From contig DVKQ01000046.1 of assembly GCA_018715925.1 (NCBI GenBank), forward strand, positions 1-32,380: a stretch of 32,380 nucleotides of DNA, written 5' to 3'. The notes beneath the pieces were generated by a model. It ran no database searches and was not told the DNA's origin. It saw only the letters and a program-made list of their open reading frames with translations. Shown in pieces: positions 8,974-22,811 of this stretch. A program made the position numbers and the translations under genes. The DNA is from Candidatus Onthousia faecipullorum (GTDB taxonomy: Bacteria > Bacillota_I > Bacilli_A > RF39 > UBA660). Each line of letters begins with the position of its first letter. Positions within the stretch are counted from its first letter, which is position 1.

Positions 8974-9005
8974 AAAAGAGATAAGTTTTTGTGCTTATCT
9001 CTTTT
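8974..9005. terminator. bidirectional terminator between convergent genes
   Basis: 12-bp perfect arms aaaagagataag / cttatctctttt. Confidence 0.85.
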
Positions 9006-11031
9006 AAGATTCTGTTGATGTATTTGGTACTTCTGGAATTACATCTTTAATATCATCACTAGGAGGAGTATCAGTACCTTGTTCAGGTGGATCTTCATCA
9101 CTAGGATCTTCTGGTTCTATTGGGATAGGATTAGACTCAATATCTTCATCATCATCCTCTTTTCTATCATCACTAGTAGGTGGAGTATAACTAGGTTCTT
9201 CATAACTGCTACTACCAGATAATGTTAATACAACACTACCACTTATTAAATCTATTCTCTTATTAGCAGGAAGACTTTGACTAACTACATAGCCACTTTC
9301 TCCCTTAAATGTAACTCTAATTCCATGAGCATTGGCATACCTTTCCGCTTGACTCATACTGTCTCCTGTAAAATCAGGTAATAAATCATAAGTAAAAGCA
9401 GTCTTGTAAGGACCAGTACCAGTAACTGTTTTCTCATAGTCTTCATCATTAATAGAGAAGGAAAATTCTTTAATCATATTAGGTTCTTGTTCACCAAGAT
9501 TAATTTTCATCGCTTCAACTATATCATCACGACTTGCAGTATTAGGAACATAGTCCCATAAAACCATTCTACTTCTCTCATCATAAATCATTTGACCAGT
9601 ACCATCTAAATATAATTGTTCAATATTAATAAGATCAGCATCATCTTTTTGTAGGGCATTATTCATTATATCTTTAGCGATATCATAGAAAGATAAAATT
9701 TGTTGTTCAGTAAAGTTAGTATCAAGGTTATTAGTAATTGTATTTAAGACATCCATAACTTGATTAATACTTTTTAATTCTTTCGCTTTATTTAATATTC
9801 CTTGAATAACTAATTGTTGATTTAATCCTCTATCTAAATCTCCACCTGCAAGTTGTTTTCTATTTCTTGCAAGTACTAAAGCTTGTTCACCATTTAGAGT
9901 TTGAACTCCTGCACTTATACAAACTTCTCCTTCACGGTTAGAGTTATCTGTACAAAGGTCTTGAGGAACATCGACAGTAATACCTCCTAAGGTATCAACT
10001 AAACTAACTAATCCTTTAAAGTTAATCTTAGCATAATAATCAATAGTAACATCAAAATAGTTTTCAATAGTATCCATCATACAATCAGTTCCATAAGCAG
10101 CGGCATGGGTTATTTTATTTTCAGGTTGACCACTCCAACAAGCGATTGGAACATAACTATCTCTTGGAATACTTAACATTGTAGCATTTAAAGTATTAGG
10201 ATTAAACGTAACTAATATTAAACTATCTCCATTTGCAACTGTATTTTTAGATAATCCTTCTTGTTCTGAGTCAACTCCCATTAAAAGAATTGTAAATGGT
10301 TCGGTAACAGATTTACCTGTTGATGTGCTTCTATTACTAGTACTTGTTTTTTTCATTTCTTTTTCTTTAGTTAAGATAATTTTCGTATCATCAGTAATAT
10401 TTGTATATGTTTCCATACTTGTAAACATAGAAGGATAATCTGTTGGAACAAAGATAGCATCAACTTCGCCATCATATAAATCAGCCATGACTGTAAAGTA
10501 ATCATCATATTCTACTATTTCATTTTCATCTTTTAATTTATTTTCATCAATAACTTCATTAGGAATTATATATCCTTCTGGAGATGATTCATCTGATAAT
10601 ATTCCAATAGAGTTATCAGCTAGGTCTTCAACACTTTCTATTTCACTACTACTTGCAACTATTAGACTACTAGAATAAGTAACTGTATCTCTATTAATAC
10701 TAGATAGTGTTCCATAAGCATACATTATTAAACCACTAATAGCACAGTTTATAAGTAAATAGAGTATTAAAAAGAAGGTAAGAAGCCTTGACCTCTTTTC
10801 TTTATGTCGTCTTTTAGATCTTACTTTAAAAATAATTACTATATCTAAAACAACGAATATTCCGATAATAATATATCTAACTACTTCTTCAATTGGTCCT
10901 AATAGTAAGATATTATATATAGCGAATAGATTACTTGCTATAACAATTATACTTAGTATAGCGAGCCATAATCTACATTTCTTTTTTTTCTTATCTTTTT
11001 TTTCTTCTTTAATCTCTTTATTCTTTCTCAT
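9004..11031 (-). CDS. multi-domain LytR-CpsA-Psr (LCP) protein: TM helices + SBP3-like domain + LCP + C-terminal PASTA-like domain
   Basis: LCP motifs ILLMGVDS, DSLILVTFNPNT, MLSIPRDSYV, KITHAAAYG, GLVSLVDTLGGITVDVP, ALVLARNRK..GDLDRGLNQQ; SBP3-like SVEDLADNSIGILSDESSPEG..YDGEVDAIFVPTDYP; PASTA-like LPDFTGDSMSQAERYANAHGIRVTF..GYVVSQSLPANKRI..GSVVLTLS. Confidence 0.88.
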   Translation of the reverse strand: MRKNKEIKEEKKDKKKKKCRLWLAILSIIVIASNLFAIYNILLLGPIEEVVRYIIIGIFVVLDIVIIFKVRSKRRHKEKRSRLLTFFLILYLLINCAISGLIMYAYGTLSSINRDTVTYSSSLIVASSSEIESVEDLADNSIGILSDESSPEGYIIPNEVIDENKLKDENEIVEYDDYFTVMADLYDGEVDAIFVPTDYPSMFTSMETYTNITDDTKIILTKEKEMKKTSTSNRSTSTGKSVTEPFTILLMGVDSEQEGLSKNTVANGDSLILVTFNPNTLNATMLSIPRDSYVPIACWSGQPENKITHAAAYGTDCMMDTIENYFDVTIDYYAKINFKGLVSLVDTLGGITVDVPQDLCTDNSNREGEVCISAGVQTLNGEQALVLARNRKQLAGGDLDRGLNQQLVIQGILNKAKELKSINQVMDVLNTITNNLDTNFTEQQILSFYDIAKDIMNNALQKDDADLINIEQLYLDGTGQMIYDERSRMVLWDYVPNTASRDDIVEAMKINLGEQEPNMIKEFSFSINDEDYEKTVTGTGPYKTAFTYDLLPDFTGDSMSQAERYANAHGIRVTFKGESGYVVSQSLPANKRIDLISGSVVLTLSGSSSYEEPSYTPPTSDDRKEDDDEDIESNPIPIEPEDPSDEDPPEQGTDTPPSDDIKDVIPEVPNTSTES

Positions 11032-11204: not shown

Positions 11205-13019
11205 ATGTGTATGAAGAAAATAACTTATACTTTACTTATCTTTATTATGCTTTTTACTTTTATTCCGAATGTTTTTGCAGATAGTTATATAGTGTTAAAT
11301 GCTAATAAATATTTTAGAGATAAACCGGGTGGTAATTTAATAACTGGAGTAGAGGAAGGCATTTTACTTGCAGGTACTAAAGTAGATGTAATTAGTACTG
11401 ATGGTGATAGTGGTTATGGATGTAGAAATGCTTGGTACAAAGTAAAATATAATGACTTAGAAGGATATATTTGTTCAAGTAATCAAGCGATTATAAACGT
11501 TGCAGATGTTGATCTTAATGGAGATTTTGAAAAAGAAATGTTAAGTAAGGGATTTAGTGAGAGTTATTTACCTTATTTAAAGGCCTTACATGAGAGGCAT
11601 CCTAATTGGACTTTTACAGCTGTTAAGACTAATATAGATTTTCTTGATGCTGTTACTAATGAGAATTATGGAACGATTAGTTTAGTAGATGGATCTGATG
11701 AATCTTTAAGAAGTAAAGAGCTCCCTTATTATCAAAATGGAGTATATCAAGAGATAGAACCTGGATGGTATGTGGCAAGTAGAGATACTGTTTCTTACTA
11801 TTTAGATCCTAGAAATTTCTTATCAGAAGAATATATCTTTATGTTTGAGAATTTAAAATATAACTCATCAATTCATACAGAAGATGCAGTAAGAGGAGTT
11901 ACTAGTGGTACTTTTCTAAATACTAGTGAATATTTAAATATCTTAATGAAGACTGCTAGAACTTATAATGTTAGTCCAGTTTATCTTGCTAGTAGAATTA
12001 GACAAGAAAAAGGGACAGCTGATAGTATTTCTACAACAGGAGGGGCCTTTACTTTTAGTGTTGATAATAATTGTTTAAATAATTTAGGTTCTAATGATTC
12101 TTGGGAGAGATTAAATTCTTGTGGTAATGGAAAAACATATAGTGGTATTTATAATTACTTTAATATAGGAGCATATGGTTCTTATATGTCTCCCCAAATA
12201 AGAGGTTTAATATGGGCTAATGGAGGATTTGATGCTTCTGTTACTACTTATAATAGGCCTTGGAATAGTAAAGAAAAAGCGATTATGGGAGGAACTGAGT
12301 ATATCGCTAGTAAATATATAGATGCTAATCAAAATACTTTATATTATCAGAAGTTTAATGTCTCACCAGATGCAGTTTACCCTACTTATACTCATCAATA
12401 TATGACTAATATAAGAGCTCATTCACAAGAAGCTTATAGTACTTATAAGAGTTATAAGGAAAATAATCTTTTAAATAATACTTATGAATTTTTAATACCA
12501 GTTTATAATAATATGCCTAATGATAATGAAGTAATACTTCCAGATGATGATAGTGAAGAAGAGATAGTAACAGAACCTGATATTGATGTTAATACAGGAG
12601 TTGTCGCATCAGGCTTTAAGATAGATGGAGAAGTTATTTCTAATATTTCCTTTAATACAAGTGTTGATTCTATTAATAGTATGTTAAGTAGTATTAATGC
12701 TAATTTAAAAGTTACTGATTATTTAGATAGATATGGTAATAAAGCTAGTGGTAATGTTGGTACAGGAGATACTCTAGTTATTAGTAATGGAAGTACTAGT
12801 ATATCTTATAAAATTGTTATCTATGGTGATAATAATGGTGATGGTAAAGTTAGTGTTGTAGACCTTTTAAGAGTTCAAAAAGATATTTTAGGAAGTAGTA
12901 ATTTATCTACTTATGATAGGAAAGCTAGTGATACTAATAAAGATGGTAGTGTAGATGTAGTAGACCTACTTAGAGTTCAAAAACAAATACTTGGTAATAA
13001 TGTAATAGAACAGGAGTGA
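11205..13019 (+). CDS. secreted SH3b + endo-beta-N-acetylglucosaminidase with C-terminal type I-like dockerin
   Basis: Signal peptide; SH3-like YFRDKPGGNLITGV..GYICSS; glucosaminidase-type NVSPVYLASRIRQEKGT; duplicated Ca-binding DNNGDGKVSVVDLLRVQKDIL and DTNKDGSVDVVDLLRVQKQIL (dockerin). Confidence 0.88.
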   Translation: MCMKKITYTLLIFIMLFTFIPNVFADSYIVLNANKYFRDKPGGNLITGVEEGILLAGTKVDVISTDGDSGYGCRNAWYKVKYNDLEGYICSSNQAIINVADVDLNGDFEKEMLSKGFSESYLPYLKALHERHPNWTFTAVKTNIDFLDAVTNENYGTISLVDGSDESLRSKELPYYQNGVYQEIEPGWYVASRDTVSYYLDPRNFLSEEYIFMFENLKYNSSIHTEDAVRGVTSGTFLNTSEYLNILMKTARTYNVSPVYLASRIRQEKGTADSISTTGGAFTFSVDNNCLNNLGSNDSWERLNSCGNGKTYSGIYNYFNIGAYGSYMSPQIRGLIWANGGFDASVTTYNRPWNSKEKAIMGGTEYIASKYIDANQNTLYYQKFNVSPDAVYPTYTHQYMTNIRAHSQEAYSTYKSYKENNLLNNTYEFLIPVYNNMPNDNEVILPDDDSEEEIVTEPDIDVNTGVVASGFKIDGEVISNISFNTSVDSINSMLSSINANLKVTDYLDRYGNKASGNVGTGDTLVISNGSTSISYKIVIYGDNNGDGKVSVVDLLRVQKDILGSSNLSTYDRKASDTNKDGSVDVVDLLRVQKQILGNNVIEQE

Positions 13020-14350
13020 TTAACTTGAAAAAGATATTGTTTATATTAGGACTTAGCTTCCTTTTCTTTTGCCCTTATGTAGTAGATGCTGCTTCTATTT
13101 CAGTTAGTAGTTCTACATCTACGGGAACAGTTGGGGGAAATATTACAGTTAGAGTTAATATAAATGAAAGTAGTGGACTTGGTAGTTGGGAATATAGCCT
13201 AGATTATGATAGTAGTAAATTACAGCTTTTGAGTGGTAATACTCATGTAGTTGGTTATGTTTCTAGTGAAGGACAAACTAGTCAAAGTTATACTTATACT
13301 TTTAGAGTTAAAGGAACAGGAAGTACTACTATATCAGTTGTTAATACGGCAATTGCATCATGGGATGAAGTAGTTACTAGTCCAACTGATAGTACAACTA
13401 TTAATTTAGTTAGTAGAAGTGAAGTAGAAGAAAATTATAGTACTGATAATACCCTTGCAAGTCTAGAAGTAGAAGGTTTTAGTTTAAGTCCAGAGTTTAA
13501 TAGTGATACAACCTCTTATAAAGTCGATGCTGATAGTGATACTACTAGTGTTAAAGTTAATGCTAAGGCAAATGATGATAATGCCAAAGTAAGTGGTGAT
13601 GGAGAAATAGAAGTTCATGAAGGCTCTAATACGATAAATGTAGTTGTAGAAGCGGAAAGTGGAGCGACTAAGACTTATACAATAGTAGTTAATGTTAAAG
13701 AAAAAGATCCTATTAATGTAGAAGTTAATAAAGAGAATTTAAGTGTCGTTAGAAAGACAGATGAATTACAAGATTTAGTTAAAGATTATTTTGTAGAGAC
13801 TACTGTTAATATTAATGATGAAGAAGTGCCTGCTTATAAAATAGAATCATTAAATATTACTTTAGTCGCTTTAAAAGATGAGAAAGGTAATATTAACTTT
13901 TATATCTATGATGATGGTAAGTATACTTTATATCAAGAATTAGGAAATGATAATCTTACTGTTCATTTACTAGATGATGGGAAATATCCTAGTAATTATA
14001 AAAAATATACAGTTAAAATAGATGGAGAAGAGTATACAATTTATAAACTTAATAAAGATTCTAAATATTATTTAGTATATGGAGAAAATGTAGAAACAGG
14101 CAAGAAAGGTTTATATCTATATGATAGTGTAGATAAAACATTACAAAGATATTATACAGAAGAAGTAGATAGTCTAAATGATGAATTAAGAATAAATTCT
14201 TTTATAATAATGGGACTTACTTGTTTAATAGTTTTATTATTAATAATTTTCTTAATAGCATTACATACTAAGAATAATGATAAAAGAAAATATAAAAAAG
14301 AAATTAAAAAAAGATTAAAACAAGAGAAAAAAGATTTCTTAAAAGATTAG
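13016..14350 (+). CDS. membrane-anchored cohesin-domain protein with cadherin-like beta-sandwich domain
   Basis: Signal peptide; cohesin-like VGGNITVRVNINESSGLGSWEYSLDYDSSKLQLLSG; Cadherin-like TLASLEVEGFSLSPEFNSDTTSYKV...SGATKTYTIVVNV; C-terminal TM plus basic tail; overlaps upstream stop by 4 nt. Confidence 0.8.
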   Translation: MINLKKILFILGLSFLFFCPYVVDAASISVSSSTSTGTVGGNITVRVNINESSGLGSWEYSLDYDSSKLQLLSGNTHVVGYVSSEGQTSQSYTYTFRVKGTGSTTISVVNTAIASWDEVVTSPTDSTTINLVSRSEVEENYSTDNTLASLEVEGFSLSPEFNSDTTSYKVDADSDTTSVKVNAKANDDNAKVSGDGEIEVHEGSNTINVVVEAESGATKTYTIVVNVKEKDPINVEVNKENLSVVRKTDELQDLVKDYFVETTVNINDEEVPAYKIESLNITLVALKDEKGNINFYIYDDGKYTLYQELGNDNLTVHLLDDGKYPSNYKKYTVKIDGEEYTIYKLNKDSKYYLVYGENVETGKKGLYLYDSVDKTLQRYYTEEVDSLNDELRINSFIIMGLTCLIVLLLIIFLIALHTKNNDKRKYKKEIKKRLKQEKKDFLKD

Positions 14351-14361
14351 GAGTGTAAACT

Positions 14362-14994
14362 ATGGAGGTAAAACGTAATAATAAACATCTAGGAATAATA
14401 ATATTTATTGGTTTTCTATTAATTATTATAGGAATTATTTCTTATGTAGTTATAAATTATAATAGTGATCAAGCAGAAGTTAAAAAGAGAATGGATGAAG
14501 TAAGAGAGTCTTATAAAGTTTTTAAGACTGATGTAGATGCTTTTAATAGTATTAGAGATGATATTTATAATGAAGTTATGCAAGATATGTATTATCAGAT
14601 GTTAAAAGATAATGATGCTCGTTATAAAGAATTATATCAAAGCTATAGTGATAGTTTGGAAAAAATTGATAAAGATTATAATGGAGTTAAGGATAAATGC
14701 ATTAATGTTTTACATCCTGAAGCTGATGTTAATAATAAGTGTGAAGCGATAGTTTCTTCTTATGAAGAAGTTGTTAATATTTATGTAAGTGATGTCAATA
14801 GTTATAATAGTCTAATAGATTCTTATAATAAATGGTTAAGTGATAATAATAGTACTGATACAAAGCTTGATAAGATAAAGTTAGATAGAGATTATCTAGA
14901 TATAAATGGTGATAGAGAGTATAATGGAAGAGTTGATGAAGATATTAATATAAGTGATGAAGAAGATAATACTGGGGTGGTACCTGATGAGTAA
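14362..14994 (+). CDS. single-pass membrane protein with extracytoplasmic helical region, unknown function
   Basis: N-terminal TM LGIIIFIGFLLIIIGIISYVVI then helical, Asp-rich sequence; operonic spacing. Confidence 0.7.
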   Translation: MEVKRNNKHLGIIIFIGFLLIIIGIISYVVINYNSDQAEVKKRMDEVRESYKVFKTDVDAFNSIRDDIYNEVMQDMYYQMLKDNDARYKELYQSYSDSLEKIDKDYNGVKDKCINVLHPEADVNNKCEAIVSSYEEVVNIYVSDVNSYNSLIDSYNKWLSDNNSTDTKLDKIKLDRDYLDINGDREYNGRVDEDINISDEEDNTGVVPDE

Positions 14995-16072
14995 GAAAAA
15001 TTTAGATAAGACAATTTTAATGCCTGGTATTCTAGATGAGATAAAAAAAGAGAAAAGAAAAGAGAAGAAGTTAATTACTAAAATAATAATAGCTCTATTT
15101 ATAATTGGAAGTTCTTTTTCTTTATTTCTTTTTTATGGTCCAATAGATGGTTTTCGTAATTTCTGGATAACTTCAGCGATGACTTCTATGTCTCATCAGT
15201 ACTTGGCTACTTGGTTTTATAATGATGATGTTATTAATGAGGTACTATCTAATAATCATATAATTGAAGTAGATGAAAATACTAATCCAGATTTGATTAA
15301 TTTTAAAGATTATGATACTAATCAGAAGATATATGAAAATGAATATGAGAAAGAGATTTTAACAAAAGATCCTGGTAATGACTTATATAAAGTTATAGAA
15401 GTTAGTGGTAGTGGTTATCAAGGTTATTTAGTAGCGATATATGATCCGTCCCGTGTTTCTATTGCTACAACGGCTTATCTTGGTAAAAGAGGAGAAGCGA
15501 TTACTACAGTTGCAAAAAGAGAAAATGCTATAATTGCTATTAATGCAGGAGGATTTTATGATCCTGATTGGAATAGTAATGGTGCTCTTCCTCATGGAAC
15601 AGTTATCAAAGATGGAAAGATTGTAAGTGATTATGATGATGCTAGAATGGGTGGAGGTTTTGTTGGATTTACTAATGATAATAAACTAGTACTTGGTAAG
15701 ATGAGTGCAGAAGAAGCACTTGCTATGGGTATTAGGGATGCAGTTGAGTTTGGTCCTTTCTTAATAGTTAATGGTAAGAGTAGTTTTGTCAAAGGTAATG
15801 GTGGTTGGGGTATTGCACCTAGAACTGCTATTGGTCAAAGAGAAGATGGTATAGTCTTATTCTTAGTAATTAATGGACGTCTTGCCACATCTATTGGTGC
15901 TGATATGGGAGATTTAACTGAGATAATGGAAAACTATGGTGCTGTAAATGCTGCTAATATGGATGGTGGAAGCTCTAGTGCTTTAGTCATCAATAATGAA
16001 ATTATTAATACACCAGTTGCAGGTGGTAAAGATGGTCTTAGAGATATACCAACATTTTGGATAGTTAAGTAA
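14987..16072 (+). CDS. membrane-anchored phosphodiester glycosidase (NAGPA-like) family protein
   Basis: AIIAINAGGFYDP, GGGFVGFT, EFGPFLIVNGK, APRTAIGQREDG, NAANMDGGSSSALVINN; ATG at 14987 has RBS ggggtgg and 8-nt overlap with the upstream stop, preferred over tracked start 14954. Confidence 0.88.
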   Translation: MSKKNLDKTILMPGILDEIKKEKRKEKKLITKIIIALFIIGSSFSLFLFYGPIDGFRNFWITSAMTSMSHQYLATWFYNDDVINEVLSNNHIIEVDENTNPDLINFKDYDTNQKIYENEYEKEILTKDPGNDLYKVIEVSGSGYQGYLVAIYDPSRVSIATTAYLGKRGEAITTVAKRENAIIAINAGGFYDPDWNSNGALPHGTVIKDGKIVSDYDDARMGGGFVGFTNDNKLVLGKMSAEEALAMGIRDAVEFGPFLIVNGKSSFVKGNGGWGIAPRTAIGQREDGIVLFLVINGRLATSIGADMGDLTEIMENYGAVNAANMDGGSSSALVINNEIINTPVAGGKDGLRDIPTFWIVK

Positions 16073-20415: not shown

Positions 20416-21651
20416 ATGAATCATATCTATACAGGTCTAGATATAGGGAATGGTGAGATTAAAATAGTAGTATTAAATGCTAGTAATAATAATTACCATG
20501 TTTTAGCATCTACCTCAGTAAAAACTTTAGGTTTAAAGAAAAATACAATTTATGATGATAAAAAACTTAAAAGTTCTTTATTAAAAGCTTTTAAAATAAC
20601 AGAAGAAAAACTAGGTATGAAAATAAAAGAAGTAATATTAACTTTACCTGCTAATAGAGCTAGTATGACTATGGAAAGTGGTCTTGTTAACATAAGAGAA
20701 GATAGGGTTAGAGGTAGGGATATAGATGCAGTTACGCGTGATACTATAGAAAATACTTATGATGATAGTCGTGAACTTGTTAGTTGTCTACCCATATCAT
20801 TTACAGTTGATGATGAAGCTAGTGTTATAAATCCTTTAGGAGAAGAGGGAGATAAACTATTCTTAAAAGCGGTAGTAGCATCATCTCCTAAAGAAGAGAT
20901 ATATCCTTTTATTAATCTTGTTAGAAGCATTGGTGTCAATATTACAGATATCATCTATAATACTCAAGCAGATTACTATACAGTTGCATCTAAAGAGCTT
21001 GATCGTAAAATGGGTGCTATCATTAATATAGGAGCTGATATTACTAGTATAGGAGTCTTTAATAAAGGAATAATGATTAAAAACTCATATATTCCTGTTG
21101 GTAGTAGTAGTGTAGATAAAGATATATCTTTTATATATAAAATAGATTTAAAAGAAGCAAGAAAATTAAAAGAAACATTTGCCTTATCAACTTCTAGATA
21201 TGCTGATAGTAATGATAATGTTACTATTACTACTAAAGAAAATAAAAATATTACTATAAATCAAATGCAAATATCTGAAGTAATAGAATCTCGTTTAAAA
21301 GAAATATTAAAACTTGCAAAAAATGAAATAAATCGCTTAACAAAAAGAGAAATAAGTTATATAATTGTAGTAGGTGGTATTAGCGAACTTGCGGGGTTTA
21401 ACTATCTAGTTGAAGAAACTTTAGGTAGAGACTCTAGTTGTTTTAATATGATAGAAATAGGAGCAAGGCATAATAAATACACAAGTGCATTTGGATCATG
21501 TAAGTATTTTGATAAGAAATGTGCTTTGAAAGAGAAAAATATAAATATGTTTGATCTTGATGAAATAGATAATTTTGTATCACCTAAAAAGAAAAATACA
21601 AATAATGATAATATGACAAATAAATTTTTTGGTCACTTTTTTGATAACTAA
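20416..21651 (+). CDS. ftsA: cell division protein FtsA
   Basis: [45 protein letters not shown]-terminal amphipathic end [10 protein letters not shown]; directly upstream of ftsZ. Confidence 0.93.
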
Positions 21652-21665
21652 TTAAGGAGGAACTT

Positions 21666-22811
21666 TTGATGGGAAACGGACTAGAAATGGATCAATTAGC
21701 GAAAATAAAAGTAATCGGCTGTGGCGGCGGCGGTGGTAATGCCGTTAATAGAATGGTAGAATCTGGTGTTAAAGGAGTAGAATTTATAGTTGCTAATACT
21801 GATTTACAAGTATTAAATAATTCTAAAGCAGATGTTAAAATTCAACTTGGTGCTAATCTTACTGATGGACTAGGTGCAGGAAGTCGTCCTGATATTGGAA
21901 GAGAAGCAGCCTTAGAATCTAAAAAAGAAATAGAAGATGCCTTAACAGGTGCAGATATGGTATTTATTACATGTGGAATGGGTGGAGGAACAGGAACAGG
22001 TGCTGCTCCTGTCGTTGCTGAAATTGCCCAAGCTCTTGGGGCATTAACTGTTGCTATTGTTACTAAACCATTTACTTTTGAAGGAAGAAAAAGGATGGAG
22101 AATGCTCTAAAAGGTCTAGCAGAGCTTGAAAAACATGTAGATACTTTAATAGTTATACCTAATGATAGATTAAGAGAAATTATTGATAAAACAACACCTA
22201 TGTTAGAGGCATTTAAAGAAGTTGATAATGTTCTTCGTCGTGGCGTTCAATCTATATCAGATTTAATTGCTGTAGTTGGACTTGTTAACCTTGATTTTGC
22301 TGATGTTCAATCAGTTATGAAAGAATCTGGTCGGGCAATTATTGGTATCGGTATTGGTGTTGGAGAAGAAAGAGCAATTGAAGCTGCTAAACAAGCCGTA
22401 TCTAGTCCTCTTTTGGAAACTAGTATTACAGGGGCAACTGATGCTATTATTAATATTACAGGTGGAGTTAACTTAACACTATTTGAAGCAGAACAAGCTG
22501 CTGAAGTTGTAAGAGCAGCATCTGGTAATGATATAAATACAATATTTGGTTCAGTTATCAATGAGAACTTGTCTGATGAAGTAATTGTTACTGTCATCGC
22601 TACAGGTTTTGATAAAAAAGGAGAAGAGAATACTAAACAACCTGTATTCTCTAATGTAGGACAATCTAGTACACCTAATAGAAGAAGTAGAGAAGAAATA
22701 TCATATGTGGCTACAATGCCTCAATCTAATGATGAAGACGATGATGATGGTGAAATATTAGATGATACAGATTATGATTTTCCTCCATTTTTAAGAGATA
22801 AAAACTTCTAG
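21666..22811 (+). CDS. ftsZ: cell division protein FtsZ
   Basis: [31 protein letters not shown] tubulin signature, C-terminal peptide DFPPFLRDK. Confidence 0.99.

Follow-up and report, generated by a model that had tools for sequence, protein, structure and literature searches.

A dockerin-bearing, GH73-like hydrolase and an adjacent cohesin membrane protein in Candidatus Onthousia faecipullorum and related Bacilli: a probable one-to-one tether

Non-cellulosomal cohesins and dockerins, cohesins anchored by a transmembrane (TM) segment and the SagB–SpdC pair of Staphylococcus aureus are all already known. In Clostridium perfringens, cohesin and dockerin modules sit on glycosidases. The NagJ cohesin (2jh2) and the hyaluronidase dockerin (2ozn) resemble the locus described here in making cohesin–dockerin contacts outside a cellulosome, but of the present pair only one member is an enzyme, the other being a membrane anchor. 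Cellulosomes, including those with anchoring scaffoldins that end in a C-terminal TM helix (PMC11557425), share with this locus the combination of a type I dockerin enzyme and a cell-anchored cohesin. They differ in that the present system has one enzyme and one cohesin, with no multi-cohesin scaffoldin and a predicted peptidoglycan hydrolase in place of plant-polysaccharide enzymes, and in that its cohesin (about 112 aa) is shorter than cellulosomal ones. Ruminococcus bromii is also a gut Firmicute in which modules of a cell-surface complex adjoin wall-hydrolase domains; the passage concerned places X modules near autolysins in this amylosome organism and describes no dedicated hydrolase–anchor pair (PMC5814915). 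In S. aureus, SagB and the membrane protein SpdC trim or release nascent strands (PMC10581084, PMC12272431), and the likeness to the present pair lies in a SagB-like GH73 domain accompanied by a dedicated membrane protein. However, SagB is itself membrane-associated, whereas only a signal-peptide-like segment was seen in the enzyme here, and SpdC is CAAX-protease-like, whereas the partner here is a single-TM cohesin/cadherin-like protein. A search of the open-licence literature found no report of a conserved one-to-one cohesin–dockerin pair serving a wall hydrolase.

The window, which is the whole 32,380-nucleotide stretch of contig DVKQ01000046.1 (assembly GCA_018715925.1) that was analysed, carries the pair and its surroundings as listed below. 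An earlier note, made from the letters of this DNA, had placed the enzyme at 11205–13019 and the membrane protein at 13016–14350, and both open reading frames (ORFs) were recovered there.

9004–11031, − strand: LytR-CpsA-Psr protein with a PASTA domain (Pfam; synteny)
11205–13019, + strand: dockerin-bearing, putative SagB-like GH73 glucosaminidase (ORF, 604 aa; Dockerin_1 4.3e-12; family profile matching SagB structures)
11532–12518, + strand: predicted GH73-like catalytic domain (alignments to 5wqw and SagB)
12006–12008, + strand: E268, aligned to the Glu conserved among GH73 enzymes of solved structure
12597–12809, + strand: pre-dockerin module (alignment; no match in a Pfam scan)
12816–13013, + strand: type I dockerin (PF00404; alignment of relatives)
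12828–12863 and 12930–12965, + strand: the two canonical Ca-binding loops of the dockerin (alignment)
13016–14350, + strand: membrane anchor with signal peptide, cohesin, cadherin-like domain, 150-aa domain, TM segment and basic tail (ORF, Pfam, hydropathy)
13085–13423, + strand: cohesin domain, about 112 aa (PF00963; PDB profile search; Foldseek of a homologue model)
13457–13693, + strand: cadherin-like beta sandwich, PF12733 (Pfam 3e-11)
13700–14161, + strand: conserved membrane-proximal 150-aa domain (conservation; predicted at pLDDT 96)
14201–14347, + strand: C-terminal TM segment (14201–14257) and Lys/Arg-rich tail (hydropathy)
14362–14994, + strand: 210-aa coiled-coil-like protein with an N-terminal TM segment (synteny; adjoins the pair in the genus and its near relatives alone)
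14954–16072, + strand: TM-anchored phosphodiester glycosidase, NAGPA (PF09992, 2.9e-43; synteny, as a conserved neighbour restricted to the genus and its near relatives)
20416–22811: FtsA and FtsZ genes, about 4 kb past the cluster

The secreted enzyme combines a catalytic domain with a type I dockerin and also shows a weak SH3-like region. The duplicated C-terminal Ca-binding repeat described in the earlier note proved to be a full match to Dockerin_1 (PF00404; 46.5 bits against a cut-off of 22.9, residues 540–596), made of two 22-residue repeats whose DxNxDGxxxxxD loops are both intact in the translation. Its IxQ C-terminus is common to all 16 aligned relatives, and two canonical Ca loops are kept in 119 of 142 dockerins of the family. 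E268 of the catalytic domain is likewise invariant among 16 relatives. The name glucosaminidase, given in the earlier note, stands as a profile-based assignment: the enzyme-family profile matches the SagB structures 6fxp and 6u0o in the PDB at 1e-25, ahead of AtlA, AtlE and Acp, and the domain thus reads at sequence level as GH73-like and closest to S. aureus SagB. It does not stand as a Pfam call, as PF01832 (Glucosaminidase) matched neither the full-length enzyme nor its catalytic domain scanned separately. The NCBI SagB model NF052642 scored 36 bits, far under its cut-off of 425. When membrane association of the enzyme's own was sought, a signal-peptide-like segment alone was seen. The starts of relatives indicate that translation probably begins at ATG 11211.

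The second gene has the architecture that had been proposed for it, with a signal peptide, a cohesin-like domain, a cadherin-like domain, a TM segment and a basic tail (PF00963, PF12733, hydropathy); the TM segment comprises residues 396–414 and is followed by a 30-residue tail of net charge +8. Docking would be undercut if the N-terminal domain were a generic Ig or adhesion fold, a point raised in the earlier note. On examination, the domain is a cohesin by HMM, by PDB profile and by the predicted fold of a homologue. PF00963 was matched at 28.5 bits (cut-off 24.1) when segment 13079–13429 was scanned alone, and it matches the isolated domain of 33 of 34 family members; Pfam did not call it in the full-length anchor, nor did the genome scan. 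The match spans only profile positions 4–56 of 139, which together with the length of about 112 aa marks the domain as a short cohesin. Cohesins ranked first in a PDB profile search with the anchor N-terminal family, and Foldseek on a model of a homologous pair (L018) returned the C. perfringens cohesin 2jh2 at the top (1e-8), with many cellulosomal cohesins besides. The 150-aa membrane-proximal domain, absent from the domain list of the earlier note, is conserved in three families of the class. It matches neither Pfam nor any PDB fold despite its pLDDT of 96, and for want of a fold match it offers no functional hint. The start codon of the anchor is probably TTG 13025, which aligns with the starts of relatives and lies 9 nt downstream of GGAG. 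The 4-nt gene overlap noted earlier applies if GTG 13016 is the start; from TTG 13025 the genes are separated by a 5-nt gap, and the overlap is thus probably a start-codon artefact.

The genome encodes a single dockerin, a single cohesin and a single member of the GH73-like enzyme family; a check for other dockerin proteins, as the earlier note had advised, found none besides the enzyme. A cellulosome, with many dockerin enzymes and a multi-cohesin scaffoldin, was ruled out on the basis of this gene content. Close relatives of the pair occur in Candidatus Onthousia and other uncultured Bacilli or Tenericutes, and these names point to RF39 as the order surveyed. At the named loci with a dockerin enzyme, the anchor is the next gene wherever the contig continues, down to 27–35% identity; L036 and L039 have an enzyme without a dockerin and no cohesin gene next to it. 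A survey of 193 genomes of the order gave 149 strong anchor hits in 144 genomes, with a strong Pfam dockerin directly upstream of the anchor in 104 of the 149. The remaining pair cases that were inspected have weaker dockerins at the same position, G025 excepted. In 79 of 80 re-read regions of the order, a dockerin protein directly precedes the anchor, and the 80th ends at a contig edge. The enzyme family is also missing from the 18 genomes in which no anchor was matched and from G099, of the same genus. Enzyme and anchor are retained or lost jointly within the order. Among small gut bacteria of RF39 and related lineages, a pair of one enzyme and one anchor appears to be conserved in considerably more than 100 genomes. 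At the excepted locus (L073, G025:C5:4000-9500), the anchor cohesin is kept and the enzyme has several N-terminal SH3 repeats and no dockerin.

Adjacency of this kind would also be seen if the two genes were only co-expressed and the dockerin served as a Ca-stabilised C-terminal cap, without docking. This reading could draw on anchors that have no recognisable cohesin: the family cohesin HMM fails to recognise the N-terminal domain in 19 of the 79 re-read regions, which implies that a domain of the Ig-like kind, shorter or diverged, is the partner there. Pairwise distances of six regions across 142 pairs were compared by partial correlation. The dockerin and the anchor N-terminal domain, encoded by different genes, co-diverge with a partial r of 0.65, and no other region co-diverges comparably with the anchor N-terminal domain. 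The dockerin against its own upstream pre-dockerin module gave 0.09, and the N-terminal domain against its own downstream cadherin-like domain gave 0.07. In a dereplicated set of 95 pairs, the dockerin–cohesin-side correlation was 0.66, and the maximum of 1999 permutations was 0.20. So specific a co-divergence across genes, with neither domain tracking its own neighbour, makes an undocked cap very unlikely; in addition, the two anchors that lack the N-terminal domain (G365 and G411) both sit in genomes without any dockerin.

The same low values for neighbours in the DNA argue that physical linkage alone does not explain the co-divergence. Because the dockerin and the N-terminal domain are adjacent in the DNA, a single recombination tract could exchange the 3′ end of the enzyme gene together with the 5′ end of the anchor gene, and correlated divergence would follow without binding. 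Such tracts should, however, often carry the pre-dockerin module or the cadherin-like domain as well, which the partial correlations speak against, and joint replacement would itself suggest that dockerin and N-terminal domain must match. We regard this explanation as highly improbable.

Docking was also approached by structure prediction. In some relatives the enzyme and anchor genes are in frame, so that reading the stop codon as Gly yields a single dockerin–cohesin chain. AlphaFold2 modelled this natural read-through cognate chain from 28 paired rows with a pLDDT of 85 and a pTM of 0.76, where simple arithmetic gives an expectation of about 0.5–0.6 for independently placed domains. By this prediction the two modules are packed against each other in a fixed orientation. 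At residue level, direct-coupling analysis gave dockerin–cohesin couplings no stronger than controls. The top couplings link dockerin L555 and L589, which occupy corresponding places in the two repeats, to cohesin L55 and G56; they were discounted, as shuffled pairings and the dockerin against the membrane-proximal domain gave similar maxima.

The earlier note had proposed that the dockerin attaches a cell-wall hydrolase to the cell's own membrane anchor, and the cohesin matches, the co-divergence and the predicted packing lend this support. Domains, one-to-one content, adjacency, joint retention or loss and co-divergence come from sequence and its comparison, and the docked fold is a prediction. 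A mechanism is proposed in which the glucosaminidase would be secreted in unanchored form and its C-terminal dockerin would, presumably with Ca2+, bind the cohesin that forms the tip of the neighbouring anchor protein. Once docked, the enzyme would be kept on the outer side of the cytoplasmic membrane and could there cleave glycan strands of the cell's own wall that lie close to the membrane; a peptidoglycan wall is predicted for most RF39 species (PMC10868615). That a dedicated one-to-one cohesin–dockerin tether keeps a peptidoglycan hydrolase at the membrane is, in our judgement, probable. A SagB-like role for the tethered enzyme, by analogy with membrane-bound SagB of S. aureus, is put forward more tentatively, as a possibility that falls somewhat short of an even call.

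The complex could be real and yet face a different substrate. A docked enzyme that faced outward would act on peptidoglycan debris, or on neighbours' walls, and feed the cell muropeptides, instead of remodelling its own wall. RF39 is predicted to have incomplete synthesis of peptidoglycan precursors and possibly to need scavenged muropeptides (PMC10868615), and a second type of anchor, which pairs with a dockerin-bearing M6 peptidase, looks nutritional or offensive. With a membrane anchor, however, the enzyme would be located under or within the wall, and the closest match of its catalytic domain is SagB, an enzyme that acts on nascent strands of its own cell (PMC12272431); outward action is accordingly thought unlikely. 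Somewhat more room is left for a complex that serves sporulation or cell separation and not the trimming of nascent strands, an option to which we give a small but real chance. Sporulation is predicted for RF39 (PMC10868615), and the FtsA and FtsZ genes, 4–7 kb past the cluster and within the window, would fit cell separation. Against this, none of the genes of the cluster was seen to be a sporulation gene, and the resemblance to SagB again favours work on nascent strands.

The anchor is found beside more than one kind of hydrolase. In two further families of the class (f9 and f14), the same anchor stands behind dockerin-bearing canonical PF01832 glucosaminidases in 9 of 10 cases examined, one of the nine lying slightly below the Pfam cut-off; in the tenth case it stands behind a GH25 muramidase. 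A broader and tentative proposal, which we hold with less than even confidence, is that the envelope of RF39 and related Bacilli could have, as a core device, a swappable one-to-one tether for a peptidoglycan hydrolase of the cell itself. The anchor would take a SagB-type GH73, canonical GH73 or GH25 enzyme, the plug and socket types would co-evolve, and larger dockerin sets in the order would be elaborations. Cohesins and dockerins have been studied almost wholly within cellulosomes, and a minimal pair for hydrolase tethering, if true, would give them a housekeeping role. It would also hint at how gut Bacilli with reduced envelopes confine a hydrolase to the place that requires it, and would make many natural dockerin–cohesin types available for orthogonality tests.

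Upstream of the pair, the LytR-CpsA-Psr gene is divergently transcribed and is a conserved neighbour in the genus; its product includes a stretch similar to phosphonate-binding periplasmic proteins (PF12974, 6e-8). Elsewhere in the order, the second anchor type occurs in six genomes (L080–L084 and L095), with a shorter Ig-like domain followed by a 950–1050-aa protein that ends in a dockerin; all three of these dockerin proteins that were typed by Pfam are M6 peptidases. At a further locus of the same order (L085, G169:C7:6000-25900), a multi-dockerin cluster adjoins an anchor with a clear Pfam cohesin, and its dockerin proteins are a papain-like peptidase with a lectin-like domain, an LRR-like protein and a Big_2 protein.
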